Below, one piece after another: positions 12,695 to 50,485 of a stretch of DNA of 50,485 bases. Both the position numbers and the translations under genes were made by a program. Every line of letters starts with the position of its first letter. Within the stretch, counting starts at the first letter, position 1. The notes beneath the pieces were generated by a model. That model saw only the letters and a program-made list of their open reading frames with translations, was not told where the DNA came from and made no database searches. Source of the stretch: Terrimicrobiaceae bacterium (lineage in GTDB: Bacteria; Verrucomicrobiota; Verrucomicrobiia; Chthoniobacterales; JAATET01). The stretch lies in assembly GCA_028713285.1 (NCBI GenBank), contig JAQTOP010000013.1, forward strand, positions 1 to 50,485, read 5' to 3'.

Positions 12695-14629
12695 TTAGCG
12701 GGTGGCCGGGCCATCGACGAAGAGGCGGAAGCTGTCGAGAGCGACGCGTCCGGCCTTCGGCGAAATGCGGAAGCGGACTTGCACGGCATCCGCTTCCGGC
12801 GGGATGGTGATGAAGAAAAAATCCTCGCTCGATTCGCCGAAGAAATAGGGGGTGAGTGAAAGATCCTGGATGCGGACGCCGCGGTGCAGGAAAGCCGCGG
12901 CGGCGCGGATGGGTTCGGTGGCGTCCGACGAATAGCGAAGCGACAGGAAGAGCGTGCGGCCGGCGAGCAGGGCGGGAAGGGGCCGGGGCGGCAGTTCGAT
13001 CGCATCGTGCTTCGGTTTGGAAAAGTCCCACGTATGCGGCACGGGGAGTTCGGGCAACAGCTCCGTGCGCAGCAGGCGGCCTGTCGAGCATTGTTCCGAG
13101 AGGCGAGCGCCTGCCTTGCGGCGGGCGAGAAAGACGAAGTCGGGCGCATCGTCCTTGAGAATGACACTCCGCGCGGACCATCCGCCAAGCGGCGGGCGCA
13201 GGTAGGGCGCGATTTCGCCGATGGCGGAGAGTTGATCGTATTCGCTTTTCTTGCGCGTTCCGGTCCATATCCATTTGCGGTTGAACCAGATTTCATCGGC
13301 TGTGGCGGCGAGTTGCCGTGTCATCGGCGAAGGATCGAGCAGATCGTTTTGCAGAATCCAATCGACGCGTTCGGCGGCGGCGGGATCGGCGAGATAGGCG
13401 ACGTGACGCATCGGCGCGTGCGAGAGGACGCGCAGGCCGGGAGGAGCCGAGCGTTCGCAGACGGCGATTTCGTGGAGATAATTCGGCCCGCGGAACGGAC
13501 GGTCTGCCAAAAACGCAAGCGCCACGGCAACCGCCGCGAGCGCCAGCGCCGGGCGGCGGCCGATCCAGCGGGCGGGCGGCCAGGCGCGCAGGGGCCGGGG
13601 CAGGCGTCCGACAAGCCATGCGAGCGCGAGGGCCGACAGGATCGAGAGCGGGAAGGCGAGGCTGCCGAGAAATCGATCTCCGTCGCGCATGAGCGGGCGG
13701 GGAGGCGAGAGGCTTTGCAGCGCGCAACTGTAGATCAGCAAGTAGCCAATGGCGTAGAGGACGAGCGCGCGACCCGGCGGGCCGAAGGTCCTCCATGCGA
13801 CCCCGATTCCGAGCAGGGCGGTGAGATTGAGCGCGATGGCGGAAGGGCGATCGAAGAGGGACGGCAGGAAACGGAAGGGCAGCTTCCAGAGCGAGAGGGA
13901 CTCGGTGCCCTTGCGCCCGCGCGCGCCGAGATTCGCATGCAGGCTGTGCAGCCAGTCGCCGGTGAGGGAGTGGTAGATCGCGGCTTCGATGAAGACGAAG
14001 CCCGCCGCGAACAGGCCGCAAAGCCCCAGCCAGAGGACCTGGCGCGGATAAAAGGCGAGCGTCGCGATGACGAGCACGGGAACCGCGAAGACGCCGGTGA
14101 TGCGGTTGGCCTGGGCGACGGCGAGCGCGAGCCCGACCAGCGCGACGAGCGGAACTTTCGCCGTGATCCGCTCGGTGCGGACCATTTTCAACCAGGCGAG
14201 GAACGCGAGGGAGACCCAGAAGCCCTCGGAAAGATCGGGCATCGGGCGGTTCATCAGCGAATCGAGCTGAGGGTGAAAGAGCAGCAGTATGCCGGCAAGG
14301 AACGCAATGGGTTCGGTCGCACCGACCTCCCGGGCGAGCAGATAAACGATCGCCGCGCTCGCACCGAGGTAGATCATCGGCTCGAGGTAGTAGGAGAGCG
14401 CGCTGAAGCCGAAGGGGATTTGCAGGAGCCAGCACAATCCCCATACGGGCCAGCGGAGGTCGTGAAAAGATCCCGGGCTCCATGCGTCGGGAACACCGTG
14501 ATGCAGGTCGAAGGCGAGGCCCCAGTAATTCAGATCGTCGCCGAGCGAGGGGGGAGCCTGGTAAATCCAACAGACGAGGAATCCGCCCAGGAAGAGCAGG
14601 ATCGGCGCAAGGAGGGGACGCGATTTCAT
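12695..14629 (-). CDS. GT-C-like polytopic membrane protein with C-terminal soluble domain
   Basis: A 644-aa membrane protein. About ten hydrophobic segments lie in residues 1-400. The first loop after TM1 holds an acidic pair (PPSLGDDLNYWG), as in GT-C glycosyltransferases of the ArnT/PMT type, which use polyprenyl-linked sugars. Residues from about 420 form a large, probably periplasmic part ending in a beta-rich region. The start ATG 14629 overlaps the upstream stop (ATGA); an open frame runs further upstream to 14881 but is a shadow. Together with the preceding gene and lpxD it suggests cell-envelope glycan modification. The donor and acceptor are unknown. Confidence 0.65.
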   Translation of the reverse strand: MKSRPLLAPILLFLGGFLVCWIYQAPPSLGDDLNYWGLAFDLHHGVPDAWSPGSFHDLRWPVWGLCWLLQIPFGFSALSYYLEPMIYLGASAAIVYLLAREVGATEPIAFLAGILLLFHPQLDSLMNRPMPDLSEGFWVSLAFLAWLKMVRTERITAKVPLVALVGLALAVAQANRITGVFAVPVLVIATLAFYPRQVLWLGLCGLFAAGFVFIEAAIYHSLTGDWLHSLHANLGARGRKGTESLSLWKLPFRFLPSLFDRPSAIALNLTALLGIGVAWRTFGPPGRALVLYAIGYLLIYSCALQSLSPPRPLMRDGDRFLGSLAFPLSILSALALAWLVGRLPRPLRAWPPARWIGRRPALALAAVAVALAFLADRPFRGPNYLHEIAVCERSAPPGLRVLSHAPMRHVAYLADPAAAERVDWILQNDLLDPSPMTRQLAATADEIWFNRKWIWTGTRKKSEYDQLSAIGEIAPYLRPPLGGWSARSVILKDDAPDFVFLARRKAGARLSEQCSTGRLLRTELLPELPVPHTWDFSKPKHDAIELPPRPLPALLAGRTLFLSLRYSSDATEPIRAAAAFLHRGVRIQDLSLTPYFFGESSEDFFFITIPPEADAVQVRFRISPKAGRVALDSFRLFVDGPATR

Positions 14630-16227
14630 GAGGCGGCGGCCGCCGGCCGCGAGGGGCGCAAGCGCGCGGCGAAGATGAGCAGCGTGTCGAGGAGCGCGAA
14701 TGCGTAAAGAATCCAGAACGGCTCGAAGAGCACGCGGAAGCGCGCGCGGATGTTCGCGGTGACCATGATCAGCACGAACAGGCCGATCAGAAACGCGCCC
14801 CAGAGCTGATGAAAATTCAGCGGTGTGCGATCGCGCAGGGCGAGGCAGAGCATCCCGCACAGGGCGGTGGTGTAGAGCCACGGAAGGCCCCGGATCGGCA
14901 CGCCGCCTGCATTCGAGCCGGGCAGGTCGATCGGGGCGACGGGCAGAAGGCTGAAGGACTGCCAGGCGCGGAGAAGGTGCGTGAGGAAATCGCCGGGAAT
15001 CGGGCGATAGGTTGACGCGAGGAAATCGCGCGCGGCCTTGGGCGATTCGAGCGGATGGCCCCAGAGGAGCCCGGAAGCGCGAAGCAGGTGGTCGTCGTGT
15101 CCGCCATTGGTGAGGGCATCGAGCTGGCCGTCGATCGCGTAGGAGTTGAAGTCACCGCTGGGGAGTTCGCGATGCGCGACGATGAATTTTCGCAGCGCGA
15201 GGCCGGGCAGGGCGACGGAATTGCGGACGGCGATTTCCAGACCGGCGCGCTTCGCGATGGAATCGACCTGAGCTGCGGCGGCGCGCGTGGATAAGCCGCC
15301 GGATGCCTGGGTTTCGATGAGAGTTTGTTGAAGCTGTTTACGCAGTGCGACAAGTCTCGGCGGCTCTGTTCGCTGCCAGGCGATCCGGGTTTGATCGGCC
15401 AGCGGGCGCACACTTTCGGCCACGCCGGGCGAGAAGATCAAATGCTCCGGAGTGAACTGGAGCAGTGAGGTGAAGAGCAGCAGGCCGCTTTGGCCGGTGC
15501 GGGAGATGGAAAAAAGGAAGGCCGTCCAGATGAGCGTCGAGGCGACGCCGACGCGGAAGGATCGCCAGTCGCCCCACAGCGTGCGAGCGACGAGAACGAC
15601 GGCGAAGAGGCTGAAAAGCCGGCCCTCGGGGCGGGACCCGGCGATGAAGAGCAGGGCGAGCAAAAGTGCGGCGAGCGTGTAGCGATTCGGAGCGCGGTAA
15701 AAGGCCGTCGCGACCAGCGCAACGAGCGTGATGCCGAAGACGGCATACGTCTCGGCAAGCGCGGTGTGTTCATACCACAGCAGAACGGGATTGAAGGCGG
15801 CGGCCAGCGTGACGGGCACGATGAGCGCGCGCCAGTTTCGCAGCCAGGCGCGGGTGAGCAGGCCGCAGGCGAAAACCGTGGCGATGCCGAGCAGGTGCTG
15901 GACGACGGCGAGGAAGGGCAGCACGGGCAGGTGAAGGATGGCAGGGATGCCATAGACCGCGGGCGCAAGGAAAGTCTTCTTCACGTCGAGAACAAAGGCG
16001 CCGCGCTCGACGAGGCGGGCGGCGGTTTCCAGGGTGGCGGCGGTGTCGTTGTGGACGAATGCCGCGGGCATGCAGGCGAGCAGGACGGCCCGCAGGACGA
16101 CGGCGAGAACGGCGGCGGGCAGGCTGAGCCTGAGCGCAAGCCGAATGTCCGGCGCGCGCAGCCGCCGCAGGAACGTCCGAAGCGCGGGCGGATCGATGAG
16201 GCGCGTGAGCCAGCCGCGACCGGGCAT
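14626..16227 (-). CDS. GT-C-like polytopic membrane protein
   Basis: A 533-aa protein with roughly ten to twelve hydrophobic helices. After the first helix the segment FVHNDTAATLETAARL carries the acidic residue expected for a GT-C active site, and SRPEGR occurs in a later loop. It resembles dolichyl-phosphate-mannose-type or family 39 glycosyltransferases, but I cannot name the substrate. The ATG at 16227 is 3 bases after the rho stop, and its stop overlaps the next membrane-protein start by 4 bases, so these are clearly one operon. Confidence 0.65.
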   Translation of the reverse strand: MPGRGWLTRLIDPPALRTFLRRLRAPDIRLALRLSLPAAVLAVVLRAVLLACMPAAFVHNDTAATLETAARLVERGAFVLDVKKTFLAPAVYGIPAILHLPVLPFLAVVQHLLGIATVFACGLLTRAWLRNWRALIVPVTLAAAFNPVLLWYEHTALAETYAVFGITLVALVATAFYRAPNRYTLAALLLALLFIAGSRPEGRLFSLFAVVLVARTLWGDWRSFRVGVASTLIWTAFLFSISRTGQSGLLLFTSLLQFTPEHLIFSPGVAESVRPLADQTRIAWQRTEPPRLVALRKQLQQTLIETQASGGLSTRAAAAQVDSIAKRAGLEIAVRNSVALPGLALRKFIVAHRELPSGDFNSYAIDGQLDALTNGGHDDHLLRASGLLWGHPLESPKAARDFLASTYRPIPGDFLTHLLRAWQSFSLLPVAPIDLPGSNAGGVPIRGLPWLYTTALCGMLCLALRDRTPLNFHQLWGAFLIGLFVLIMVTANIRARFRVLFEPFWILYAFALLDTLLIFAARLRPSRPAAAAS

Positions 16228-47549: not shown

Positions 47550-48464
47550 ATGTCCGTTCTCGTCGTCGGCTCCATCGCGCTCGATACCATCAAGACCCCG
47601 ATCGAGGAACATGCCGATCTCCTCGGCGGATCGGCCTCGTATGCCTCGGTGGCCGCCAGTTTTTTTGCGCCGGTAAATCTCGTCGGCGTCGTTGGAGACG
47701 ACTTCCCGAAGCAGCACGTCGAGCTTTTCGCCAGCCGCCGCATCGACACCGCCGGCCTGCAGATCGTTCCTGGTAAAACATTCCGCTGGTCGGGCGAATA
47801 CATGTGGGATCTGAACATCCGCGAGACGCGCTCGGTCGAGCTGAACGTCTTCGAAAATTTCTCGCCGGCGCTGCCGGAGAGCTATCGCTCGACGCCGATT
47901 GTCCTGCTGGCAAACATCGCGCCTGCGCTCCAGCACCACGTGCTCGATCAAGTCGTCCAGCCGCGATTCGTCATCGCCGATACGATGGACCTCTGGATCA
48001 ACATTGCGAAGCCCGAGCTGATCTCGCTGCTCGCCCGCGTGAACATGCTCATCCTCAATGACGGCGAGGCGCGCCAGCTCACGGGCGAGACCAGCCTCAT
48101 CCGGGCGGCCCGCAGGATTCGGGAAATGGGCCCGGACATTGTCGCGATCAAGAAAGGCGAGCACGGCTGCCTGCTCTTCGGCGGCAGCGCATTTTTCAGT
48201 TGCCCCGCCTATCCGCTCGAGGACATCCACGACCCGACCGGCGCGGGAGACACCTTTGCCGGAGGGCTCGCGGGTTATCTTTCGAGCGAAGACGGAAGCG
48301 AAATCACGTTCGACCGGCTGCGCCGCGCGGTGGTGTATGGCAGCGTGCTCGCGAGCTACAACGTCGAGCAATTCAGCCTCGAACGCCTGCGCACCGTCAC
48401 CCCCGGGGACATCTCCGAGCGCTACAGGCTGTTCCAGTTGATGAGCAGCTTCGAGGCTTTGTAA
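47550..48464 (+). CDS. PfkB-family sugar/nucleoside kinase
   Basis: A 304-aa ribokinase-like kinase. LLGGSASYASVAA near the N-terminus is the substrate side, and DPTGAGDTFAGG near the C-terminus is PfkB signature 2, with the catalytic Asp in GAGD. NDGEARQLTGE is also typical. The substrate may be a sugar, a nucleoside or adenosine-like; nothing nearby tells. It follows the kinase gene after 106 bases on the same strand. Confidence 0.9.
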   Translation: MSVLVVGSIALDTIKTPIEEHADLLGGSASYASVAASFFAPVNLVGVVGDDFPKQHVELFASRRIDTAGLQIVPGKTFRWSGEYMWDLNIRETRSVELNVFENFSPALPESYRSTPIVLLANIAPALQHHVLDQVVQPRFVIADTMDLWINIAKPELISLLARVNMLILNDGEARQLTGETSLIRAARRIREMGPDIVAIKKGEHGCLLFGGSAFFSCPAYPLEDIHDPTGAGDTFAGGLAGYLSSEDGSEITFDRLRRAVVYGSVLASYNVEQFSLERLRTVTPGDISERYRLFQLMSSFEAL

Positions 48465-48617
48465 GCCCTCGTCCGCGGATGCCGGGCGTTTGTCGTCGGC
48501 GATGCAAAAAGTTCAAGGGTTTGACGGAGGAACGGGATTGAACATTCAGAAACCCGAAGCGTTCGCGATGAACTGCGAGTGGTTCCTGAATACAAAATCC
48601 CAAAATCCCATCATCCA

Positions 48618-48920
48618 ATGAAACACACCAACCTCCTCAAATCGGCCGGCATCCTTGCCATGGCCGCAACGTTTGCCGGCGCCGCGTTCGCCGGACCCAC
48701 CAACGCCGCAGGCTTTGCCGCGCCCGCCCATCGGACCGCGTCCGCAGGCTGCCCGCTGCAGGTGAACGACACGAAGTCGCTCGGCGCCATCAACCCCAAG
48801 ACCCACGTCGCGACGCGCGTCGTGACCGGCTCGCACTTCGACGGCTGCACGGGCCGCAACCTTGCAACGATGACCTGCAAGGACTCGTCTGTTTCGTGCG
48901 CGGAGATGATTCGCGGCTGA
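48618..48920 (+). CDS. Small exported protein with four cysteines
   Basis: 100 aa from ATG 48618, with a signal peptide ending near AAFAGP (residue 26). The mature part has four Cys (GCPL, DGCTG, MTCK, VSCAE), an arrangement that could form two disulfides or bind metal. I do not recognise it. It is followed by a strong hairpin and then the metal-response operon on the same strand, so it may be an accessory of that system. Confidence 0.6.
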   Translation: MKHTNLLKSAGILAMAATFAGAAFAGPTNAAGFAAPAHRTASAGCPLQVNDTKSLGAINPKTHVATRVVTGSHFDGCTGRNLATMTCKDSSVSCAEMIRG

Positions 48921-48935
48921 CCCGCCGGCTCCGGC

Positions 48936-48961
48936 GGCAGCGGGGGAGAGCCTCCGCTGCC
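48936..48961 (+). terminator. Strong hairpin between the Cys protein and the metal-response operon
   Basis: Arms of 11 bp (one G-T pair) around AGAG, from 48936 to 48961, with ACTTTT 17 bases later. A second inverted repeat (48922-48928 with 48931-48937) overlaps its first arm, so the two could exclude each other. It may be a terminator or a leader control element. Confidence 0.5.
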
Positions 48962-48990
48962 ACGGGGAGGCGGCAACTTTTGATCCACCG

Positions 48991-49266
48991 ATGAAAGACG
49001 ATTTATCCGATCTGTTGAAGACGTGGCAGCCGCAGACGCCCGAGCCCGTGGCGTTTCGCCGCGACGTGTGGACGAGGATCGAAATGGCCTCGCCGCCGGC
49101 CGACTGGTGGCAGGAAGTGCTCGTGCTGGTTGCCAGGCCCCGGGTGGCTCTGGCGGTCGCGGTGGTCGCGATTGCGCTGGGAGGCATTTCGGGACGCGCT
49201 CTTTCCGGGGTCCCGGGCACGGACGCCTATTTGCGCTCCGTGAATCCCTACGCAATGATCCGATGA
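48991..49266 (+). CDS. Small membrane protein, anti-sigma-factor candidate (CnrY-position)
   Basis: 91 aa. A cytoplasmic N-terminus (LLKTWQPQTPEPVAFRRDVWTRIE), one helix (about 50-67) and a short periplasmic end. Cupriavidus CnrY has this same layout and size (about 95 aa recalled): it holds the sigma factor CnrH at the membrane. It overlaps the sensor gene by 4 bases. The anti-sigma role is inferred from size, topology and gene order. Confidence 0.65.
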   Translation: MKDDLSDLLKTWQPQTPEPVAFRRDVWTRIEMASPPADWWQEVLVLVARPRVALAVAVVAIALGGISGRALSGVPGTDAYLRSVNPYAMIR

Positions 49267-49703
49267 ACCGCGGCATCGCCGTCCTCGTCGGAGCGGTGGC
49301 CCTGGCGGTCCTCACTGCGGTGATATTCTGCCTCGCTCCGCGCCACGCGGCGCCGGCGGATTGGCTGCGGCGGGAGTTCGGCCTCGACGCCCGTGAGGCG
49401 GAGCAGGTCTCGATGATGCAGGCCGACTACGAGGCGCATTGCGCGGAAATGTGCGTTCGCATCCGCGAGACGGACTCCCGGCTTGCGCGTTTGATCCAGG
49501 CGAACCGGAGCATCACACCGGAGATTCGCGGTGCGATTGTCGAGTCCGACGCCGTGCGTAGCGAGTGTCGCACGAGCATGCTCGCGCATTTCTACGCCGT
49601 CGCGGACGTGCTGCCCGCCGACAAGCGCGAACGGTATCTCAAGATGGTCGTCCCCGCGGTTCTGGATCCCGAGAATATGAGCGTGCGGCGGACGACGCCA
49701 TGA
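49263..49703 (+). CDS. Periplasmic metal-sensor candidate, Spy/CpxP-Metal_resist type (CnrX-position)
   Basis: 146 aa, anchored by one N-terminal helix (5-24) with a helical periplasmic domain. The family (heavy-metal resistance, CnrX/ZraP/Spy-like) senses metal or binds unfolded protein. Possible ligands: E57, H59, C60, M63 and C64 in YEAHCAEMC, and C102, M106 and H109 in ECRTSMLAHF. The length is near CnrX (148 aa recalled). It starts at ATG 49263, overlapping the previous stop, and overlaps the sigma gene at 49700. Metal identity is unknown; Cys and Met favour a soft metal such as copper. Confidence 0.7.
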   Translation: MNRGIAVLVGAVALAVLTAVIFCLAPRHAAPADWLRREFGLDAREAEQVSMMQADYEAHCAEMCVRIRETDSRLARLIQANRSITPEIRGAIVESDAVRSECRTSMLAHFYAVADVLPADKRERYLKMVVPAVLDPENMSVRRTTP

Positions 49704-50275
49704 CACCCGCCGGAGAGGACCATGCGGCCATGGCCCGGCTGCGAGCCGGTGAGGATCTCGCGCTCAACGGGATCATGGAGCGCTGGCAGCGGCGGGTGAC
49801 GGGTTTTTTGGTGCGGATGACGGGCAATGAAACGATCGCCCTCGATCTTGCGCAGGAGACCTTCGTGCGGGTGTATTTGAGCCGGGAGCGCTTTCGTCCG
49901 CAGGGCGAATTCTCCACGTGGCTGTTCGCCATCGCGGCGAATCTGGGGCGTCAGCACTTTCGCTGGCAGAGGCGGCATCCCACCGTGTCGTTCGACGATC
50001 CGAATCGCGATGAAGGCTCGCTTGTGAAAAAACTTTCGGCGGCCGCGCCCGATGCGGTCCAGACGCTGGTTGCGGACGAACGGACGATGTCGATTCGCGA
50101 CGCGGTGATGGCGCTGCCGACCGAACTGCGCGAGGCGGTGATCCTTTCCGAATACGAGAATCTTTCCCATCGGCAGATCGCCGAGATCGCCGGCTGCACG
50201 CCGAAGGCCGTCGAAACGCGGCTGTATCGCGCGCGCTCCATTCTCCGCGAGCGGCTCGCGGCACTCCTCGCATGA
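49700..50275 (+). CDS. ECF-type RNA polymerase sigma factor (CnrH-position)
   Basis: 191 aa. Sigma region 2 (DLAQETFVRVYLSRERFRP, FSTWLFAIAANLGRQHFRW) and region 4 (LPTELREAVILSEYENLSHRQIAEIAG, KAVETRLYRARSIL) with a linker between them; regions 1 and 3 are absent as in ECF sigmas. ATG 49700 overlaps the sensor stop by 4 bases and its end overlaps the TolC-like start. It probably drives its own operon when the sensor releases the anti-sigma protein. Confidence 0.93.
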   Translation: MTPAGEDHAAMARLRAGEDLALNGIMERWQRRVTGFLVRMTGNETIALDLAQETFVRVYLSRERFRPQGEFSTWLFAIAANLGRQHFRWQRRHPTVSFDDPNRDEGSLVKKLSAAAPDAVQTLVADERTMSIRDAVMALPTELREAVILSEYENLSHRQIAEIAGCTPKAVETRLYRARSILRERLAALLA

Positions 50276-50485
50276 AGACGCGCTGCCCGGCCTTGTTCGC
50301 AGTCCTGATGATGTCGTGCGCGGGAGCGGCCCCGAATCGCGAAGGTTCGCTAACGCTTCAAAATGCCGTCGCCGAAGCGCTGGCGAACAACCCGTCGATC
50401 CGCGCCGCGCTGCGGAAGTGGAGCGCAGCTCGCGCCCGCGTGCCGCAGGCGAAGGCCTGGGACGACCCGCGGGTGAGCTACGACA
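50272..50485 (+). CDS. TolC-family outer-membrane efflux protein, N-terminus only
   Basis: The first 71 residues are in view. The signal peptide ends near SCAGA, and SLTLQNAVAEALANNPSIRAA plus VPQAKAWDDPRVSYD is the start of an outer-membrane factor. ATG 50272 overlaps the sigma-factor stop by 4 bases. CnrC, the outer-membrane part of a cobalt-nickel efflux pump, holds this same place. RND pump genes are expected beyond 50485. Confidence 0.85.
   Translation, partial: MKTRCPALFAVLMMSCAGAAPNREGSLTLQNAVAEALANNPSIRAALRKWSAARARVPQAKAWDDPRVSYD

Follow-up and report, generated by a model that had tools for sequence, protein, structure and literature searches.

Introduction

The textbook example of a membrane-bound sensor that releases its sigma factor upon binding of nickel or cobalt is CnrX. 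Copper and silver efflux by the Cus system of Escherichia coli, by comparison, is regulated by the two-component system CusRS. CnrX is described as a sensor of nickel and cobalt and its residue M123 as conserved among CnrX homologues (PMC7689651). Relatives of CorE, a copper-responsive ECF sigma factor of Myxococcus xanthus, are reported in Verrucomicrobia (PMC3107203). Among open-licence publications we found no paper joining CnrH, ECF sigma factors and Verrucomicrobia, and none joining any two of the terms CnrX, Metal_resist, PF13801 and 'periplasmic heavy metal sensor'.

Here we analyse a locus at the end of a 50,485-nucleotide stretch of DNA (hereafter the window) from a Terrimicrobiaceae bacterium. 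A preliminary description of the window had recognised a cnrYXHC-like metal-response operon in a non-proteobacterial host, and the named relatives do belong to Spartobacteria/Verrucomicrobiota. We conclude that the locus is probably an acquired, self-regulated metal-efflux cassette under a CnrYXH-like ECF switch, responding to a thiophilic metal, with Cu(I) or Ag(I) the likeliest.

Results

Gene order and insertion site

Three consecutive genes on the forward strand encode Y (48991–49266), a putative membrane anti-sigma factor of 91 aa with an LLxxW...VWxRI two-helix head, one transmembrane helix and a YLRSVNP tail; X (49263–49703), a membrane-anchored periplasmic sensor of 146 aa with a predicted CnrX fold; and H (49700–50275), an ECF sigma factor of 191 aa, an assignment borne out by a match to TIGR02937. 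A gene for a TolC-type outer-membrane factor follows on the same strand (50272–50485), the first 71 of its 429 codons lying in the window. Sizes and order had been said to mirror those of CnrY, CnrX and CnrH (95, 148 and 191 aa), and the match holds to within a few residues. The ATGA overlaps previously noted at every junction are likewise present at Y/X, X/H and H/TolC (3/3 in the window).

The window is one of the 157 contigs (C17) of a 3.53-Mb genome and ends inside the TolC gene. Contig C8 opens with the same 127 nt that close the window and carries the remainder of that gene (L003 1–1203), followed by an adaptor of 404 aa (L003 1200–2414) and a CusA-like RND pump of 1059 aa (L003 2411–5590). 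The TolC/adaptor and adaptor/pump junctions are ATGA overlaps too, and the RND and membrane-fusion genes that the preliminary description proposed to seek downstream are thus in place. Beyond the pump, tpiA lies on the opposite strand (gene names in this part of C8 are our own reading). The site is empty in three of three congeners, where the pfkB-type gene (47550–48464 in the window) is directly followed by the tpiA region at a distance of ~75–90 nt. These empty sites show that the two flanks, one on C17 and one on C8, are parts of a single region and so confirm the join; the operon constitutes an inserted cassette of ~7.5 kb between the pfkB-type gene and tpiA.

X retains the CnrX scaffold with a different set of candidate ligands

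A search with X against PF13801 returned an E value of 1.7e-6; the score of 28.6 bits fell just below the curated cut-off of 29.2. All seven PDB sequence matches of X (E up to 10) were to NccX or CnrX, with E values of 3.7e-6 for NccX and 1e-4 to 1e-3 for CnrX. The predicted model of X had a pLDDT of 89.9 (17 sequences) and its best 15 Foldseek matches were all CnrX or NccX (top E 2.4e-3). VIA paired residues 32–135 of the model with CnrX 42–145 at a Z of 10.6 (rmsd 2.2), a score which for helical bundles is not decisive alone when below ~13. The CnrX-to-X numbering offset was 10 at both ends of this pairing, in agreement with the sequence alignment. As judged by sequence and predicted fold, X is a genuine CnrX relative.

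The ligands of CnrX, H42, H46, E63, H119 and M123, correspond to A32, R36, Q53, H109 and V113 in X, H119 alone being retained. As examination for the full CnrX ligand set found four of the five lost, the sensor of the cassette is not classed as a CnrX member. Cys60, Met63, Cys64, Cys102, Met106 and His109 stand in place of the CnrX site; C60, C64, M106 and H109 are conserved, and C102 is present in most relatives. The model has helices at 43–80 and 86–116 with a short turn between them, and a regular hairpin would put C64 opposite C102 and C60 opposite M106.

The pump and adaptor are of the Cus type

The pump passed TIGR00914 (CusA-type, HME RND) at 1156 bits, with a cut-off of 701, and scored 1115 bits with CusA vs 514 with ZneA. 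Its residues M582, M632 and M681 align with the three methionines of the Cu/Ag site of CusA (M573, M623 and M672); CnrA has S, A and E at these positions. The adaptor combines a heavy-metal-binding HMBD domain with a CusB-type core. The natural reading of these sequences is that Cu(I) or Ag(I) would be the substrate of the pump.

Sensor types across Verrucomicrobiota

X or its alignment had a match in 16/57 relatives; across the order the figure was 37/213 genomes, and across the phylum 64/387. Loci were fetched for 60 places in the match listing, the remainder being mostly weak, split, already included or broken by stops. With L031 (the same place as L198), the fragments L032 and L033 and X rows shorter than 100 aa excluded, 100 sensors were classified: 20 CnrX-type (A), 47 B1 (including the window), 12 B2, 5 C, 9 D and 7 other. 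CnrX-type sensors had H42, E63 and H119 without exception (20/20 each) and M123 in 17/20, with no cysteine at 70, 74 or 112. Among the 80 remaining sensors, C74 occurred in 70, C70 in 61 and C112 in 56 (CnrX numbering); since B1 and B2 are defined by their own cysteine columns, only such counts on all 80 rows, together with the trees, are free of circularity.

A tree of the 100 sensors and five proteobacterial references placed the 80 non-A sensors in one clade (SH-aLRT 99) and all A rows together to one side of a branch (99). A second tree, of 89 sigma factors and 5 references, likewise grouped those that accompany non-A sensors (96); both were 'quick' trees with the ligand columns included. 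The agreement of the two clades implies that sensor and sigma factor travelled together, and a single switch of the metal site suffices.

Class D sensors (L178, L181, L183, L186, L187, L189–L192; family f17) carry Leu at 119 and few cysteines, and neither an RND pump nor a CPC-type ATPase was found near them in 9/9 loci. A Cys-type X is encoded in L053, a record titled Akkermansia muciniphila, a name that may be a MAG label error.

The same switch could operate with X recognising a divalent metal (Zn, Cd, Co or Ni) by means of a His/Cys site. Histidine occupies position 63 in 40/47 B1 sensors and position 119 likewise in 40/47, a His/Cys set suits Zn or Cd, and CnrX itself senses Ni/Co (PMC7689651). 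However, the X of the window carries Gln at position 63, methionine is frequent at 73 and 116, and the pump encoded in this operon is of the CusA-like kind, with Met at each of the three sites. We thus regard divalent-metal sensing as unlikely.

Less probable again is that the cysteines of X form disulfides and that X responds to thiol or oxidative stress rather than to metal. The conserved cysteines do lie in the periplasmic domain, and in the predicted hairpin Cys64 should lie across from Cys102, a placement that would suit a disulfide. Against this, Met and His are co-conserved with Cys (M106, H109), a metal pump is encoded within the operon, and B2 sensors have cysteines at 46, 70 and 74 with C112 absent.

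Candidate anti-sigma and sigma factors

The architecture of Y, a two-helix head, one transmembrane helix and a tail, resembles that of CnrY. A family search with Y gave no match, comparison with the PDB returned chance matches only (carboxylesterases, with CnrY not among them), and a profile of Y aligned weakly with proteobacterial Y proteins (probability 47.5). H matched CnrH with an E value of 3e-11 (47 bits), whereas RpoE-type sigma factors were closer (4e-23, 85 bits), and a long branch separated verrucomicrobial from reference sigma factors in the sigma tree.

The grouping of these genes is more than chance. In 89 of the 100 verrucomicrobial loci examined, the homologue of X had an H on its own strand no more than 600 nt away, and a Y-type ORF lay directly 5' of X in 67 of the 80 non-CnrX-type loci, in a search that required the Y motif. 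In one locus (L027:4093–11453) the order is Y-X-TolC-adaptor-pump-H, so that the sigma factor closes the set; beyond it the locus carries another X-H pair, of CnrX type, at 14594–16021.

In the proposed switch, Y would bind H and X would control Y. It is very improbable that the genes are mere neighbours, Y being no anti-sigma factor and H being controlled otherwise, as the family, PDB and profile searches with Y might allow, for Y, X and H occur together across the phylum, sensor type and sigma clade co-segregate, and Y retains its motif-bearing head, transmembrane helix and tail.

Upstream element, secreted protein and hairpin

Since a promoter-like element lies further upstream, the unit starts earlier than Y, the first gene of the preliminary description. 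This element, AAGGGTTT-N10-CGGGATTGAAC (48515–48543, forward strand; the GAGGGTTT element for short), stands 75 nt before the actual first gene (48618–48920, forward strand), which encodes a small secreted protein of 100 aa with 4 Cys and a signal-peptide-like N-terminus. A blind count of 5+4-mer dyads upstream of Y gave nothing clear, and the element became visible only once the secreted-protein genes upstream of Y were aligned by their starts. A pattern of CGTAT only was rejected, few verrucomicrobial loci being matched (5/47 B1, 0/20 A). The window element keeps the -35-like AAGGG and has a -10 region without the [CT]GT[AT][AT] core; some relatives keep the full element.

A loose form of the two-part element ('full2') preceded the first gene in 20/47 B1, 12/12 B2, 0/20 A, 1/5 C, 1/9 D and 3/7 other loci (background 0.013 per slot), and a form with a CnrH-like -10, [AG][AG]GGG[AT]T-N13..15-[CT]GT[AT][AT], in 17/47 B1, 6/20 A, 4/5 C, 4/7 other, 0/12 B2 and 0/9 D (background 0.008); as these patterns were derived from the same sequences, the counts describe and do not test. 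The subgroup pattern of the window element matched once in its own genome, with 0 matches for the reversed-pattern control, and 14 times in all over five genomes vs 4 control matches. With the exception of one G041 match, those in G105, G041 and G047 were placed upstream of YXH, immediately behind H or in front of a DUF3347 protein; the five in G033 look like chance, the YXH locus of that genome not being among them.

As an outside check, [AG]AGGG-N15..18-CGTAT was found upstream of both cnrY and cnrC (L202); the ncc record contains it two times, and 2/3 sphingomonad records have it. Transcription starts have been mapped 23–25 nt upstream of cnrY and cnrC (PMC9045368), and by our own arithmetic on L202 coordinates the elements end ~8–9 nt before those starts. 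In L126, L127 and L196 the element seen in the window also stands in front of a divergent TolC-adaptor(-pump) operon; pump clusters with the element numbered only 3/30 at B-type loci, 0/18 at A, 1/6 at C and 0/6 at others. The element may be the promoter used by H. Extra copies were seen immediately downstream of H; in L213 and L215 the copy precedes a secreted protein whose end is rich in His, and in L218 a DUF3347 protein.

A family search with the 100-aa secreted protein gave no match above cut-off; look-alikes occupy the same slot in L117, L200 and L201. A gene for a secreted Cys protein lay directly before Y in 12/47 B1 (including the window), 12/12 B2, 0/20 A, 0/5 C, 0/9 D and 1/7 other loci, or, pooled, in 24/59 B-type vs 0/20 CnrX-type loci, with a background of 0.022 per slot and with the L140 entry counted although it looks spurious. 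At B2 loci (L026, L030, L114, L115, L119–L125, L128) the slot before Y encodes peptides of 53–60 aa with 9–11 Cys, metallothionein-like in look; a Pfam search of one of these gave no match. The secreted Cys protein may take part in the response of the cassette.

Between the secreted-protein gene and Y lies a strong RNA hairpin (48922–48973, forward strand; mfe -42.8, z -3.6). A strong hairpin before Y recurs, with z <= -2.7 in 19 of the 25 loci folded, and might act as an intercistronic attenuator or a processing site.

Neighbouring genes and the identity of the metal

Individual B-type loci adjoin a copper ATPase (L199; TIGR01511 605 bits, cut-off 397) or a multicopper oxidase (L197). A three-Met RND pump lay within ~9 kb of 14/47 B1 vs 4/20 CnrX-type sensors and any Cu-type exporter near 19/47 vs 10/20 (p 0.55 and 0.59), while B2 loci had Cu-type neighbours in 0/12; several loci are cut by contig ends, so that these counts are lower bounds. 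As exporter co-occurrence showed no difference between the two sensor types, it was not used as support for metal identity.

On three sphingomonad plasmids (L204, L205, L206), YXH genes whose X has the orthodox CnrX ligands stand before copper-resistance genes, with divergent copCD. Cysteines are thus not required for copper sensing. The earlier proposal that the signalling design reaches beyond cobalt and nickel is correct, but the wider range was already visible in these annotated alphaproteobacterial plasmids. Because A loci adjoin copper genes about as often, and in view of the sphingomonad case, the identity of the metal rests on the pump of the operon and the new ligands rather than on statistics. 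These indicate that the metal sensed is most likely a thiophilic one, Cu(I) or Ag(I).

Discussion

We propose that, in the resting state, H would be held at the inner membrane by Y. A thiophilic metal (in the likeliest case Cu(I) or Ag(I)) would bind the Cys/Met/His face of the periplasmic helical domain of X, and metal-bound X would alter its grip on Y such that H is released. Free H could then bring RNA polymerase to the promoter of AAGGG type at 48515, and all products of the cassette, from the secreted Cys protein through Y, X and H to the CusCBA-like pump, would be raised together until the metal is cleared. Metal would, in this scheme, be the inducer of the whole cassette.

The combination of a Cupriavidus-like switch, a copper/silver-type pump and a Cys-based sensor site suggests that, in the course of evolution, a single switch design was redirected. 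More tentatively, and with a little less than even confidence, we suggest that a single event in Verrucomicrobiota turned the His/Glu/Met site of the CnrX scaffold into a soft-metal site built on cysteines, with sigma factor, anti-sigma factor and promoter -35 recognisably unchanged from Cupriavidus. The Cys branch would then have diversified (B1, B2, C, D) to drive secreted Cys-rich, partly metallothionein-like proteins and CusA pumps, as a phylum-wide periplasmic response to Cu(I)/Ag(I), one for which the papers searched contain no description.

A large clade without M123 and most other ligands, in which fold and partners are kept, offers a direct test of how the metal site talks to Y. Ligand sets should be swappable inside one scaffold with specificity as the readout. 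Additionally, the cassette provides a candidate copper response for Verrucomicrobiota, and its promoter element could be used to list targets.

The closest described system is cnrYXH-CBAT of Cupriavidus metallidurans (Ni/Co). The designation of the locus as cnrYXHC-like holds for the Y-X-H-C-B-A order, the protein sizes, the predicted fold of X, the two-helix-plus-TM Y, the ECF sigma factor, the ATGA coupling, the RND efflux genes downstream and a CnrH-related promoter element with a -35-like AAGGG/GAGGG. It does not extend to the ligands of X, 4/5 of which are replaced, nor to the pump, which is CusA-like and not CnrA-like. A secreted Cys protein comes first, there is no cnrT, and H and Y are only distantly similar, H being not especially close to CnrH. 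The ncc operon of Cupriavidus (Ni/Co/Cd) contains the same module, and NccX is the best PDB match of X; NccX, however, has the orthodox CnrX ligands, and the metals of the ncc pump differ by annotation.

The Sphingomonadaceae loci share the same three genes with copper genes, and 2/3 of their records have the AAGGG/GAGGG...CGTAT element, but they possess an H/H/E/H/M site and a multicopper oxidase with CopB instead of CusCBA. In the type of pump and adaptor the cassette is like the Cus copper/silver efflux system of E. coli; unlike Cus, it is placed under an ECF sigma switch, and no CusF-like gene was seen in the operon. CorE resembles the present case as an ECF sigma factor that controls copper genes. 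It carries a Cys-rich domain itself and is not linked to an anti-sigma factor, whereas the cassette described here contains a membrane sensor and Y.
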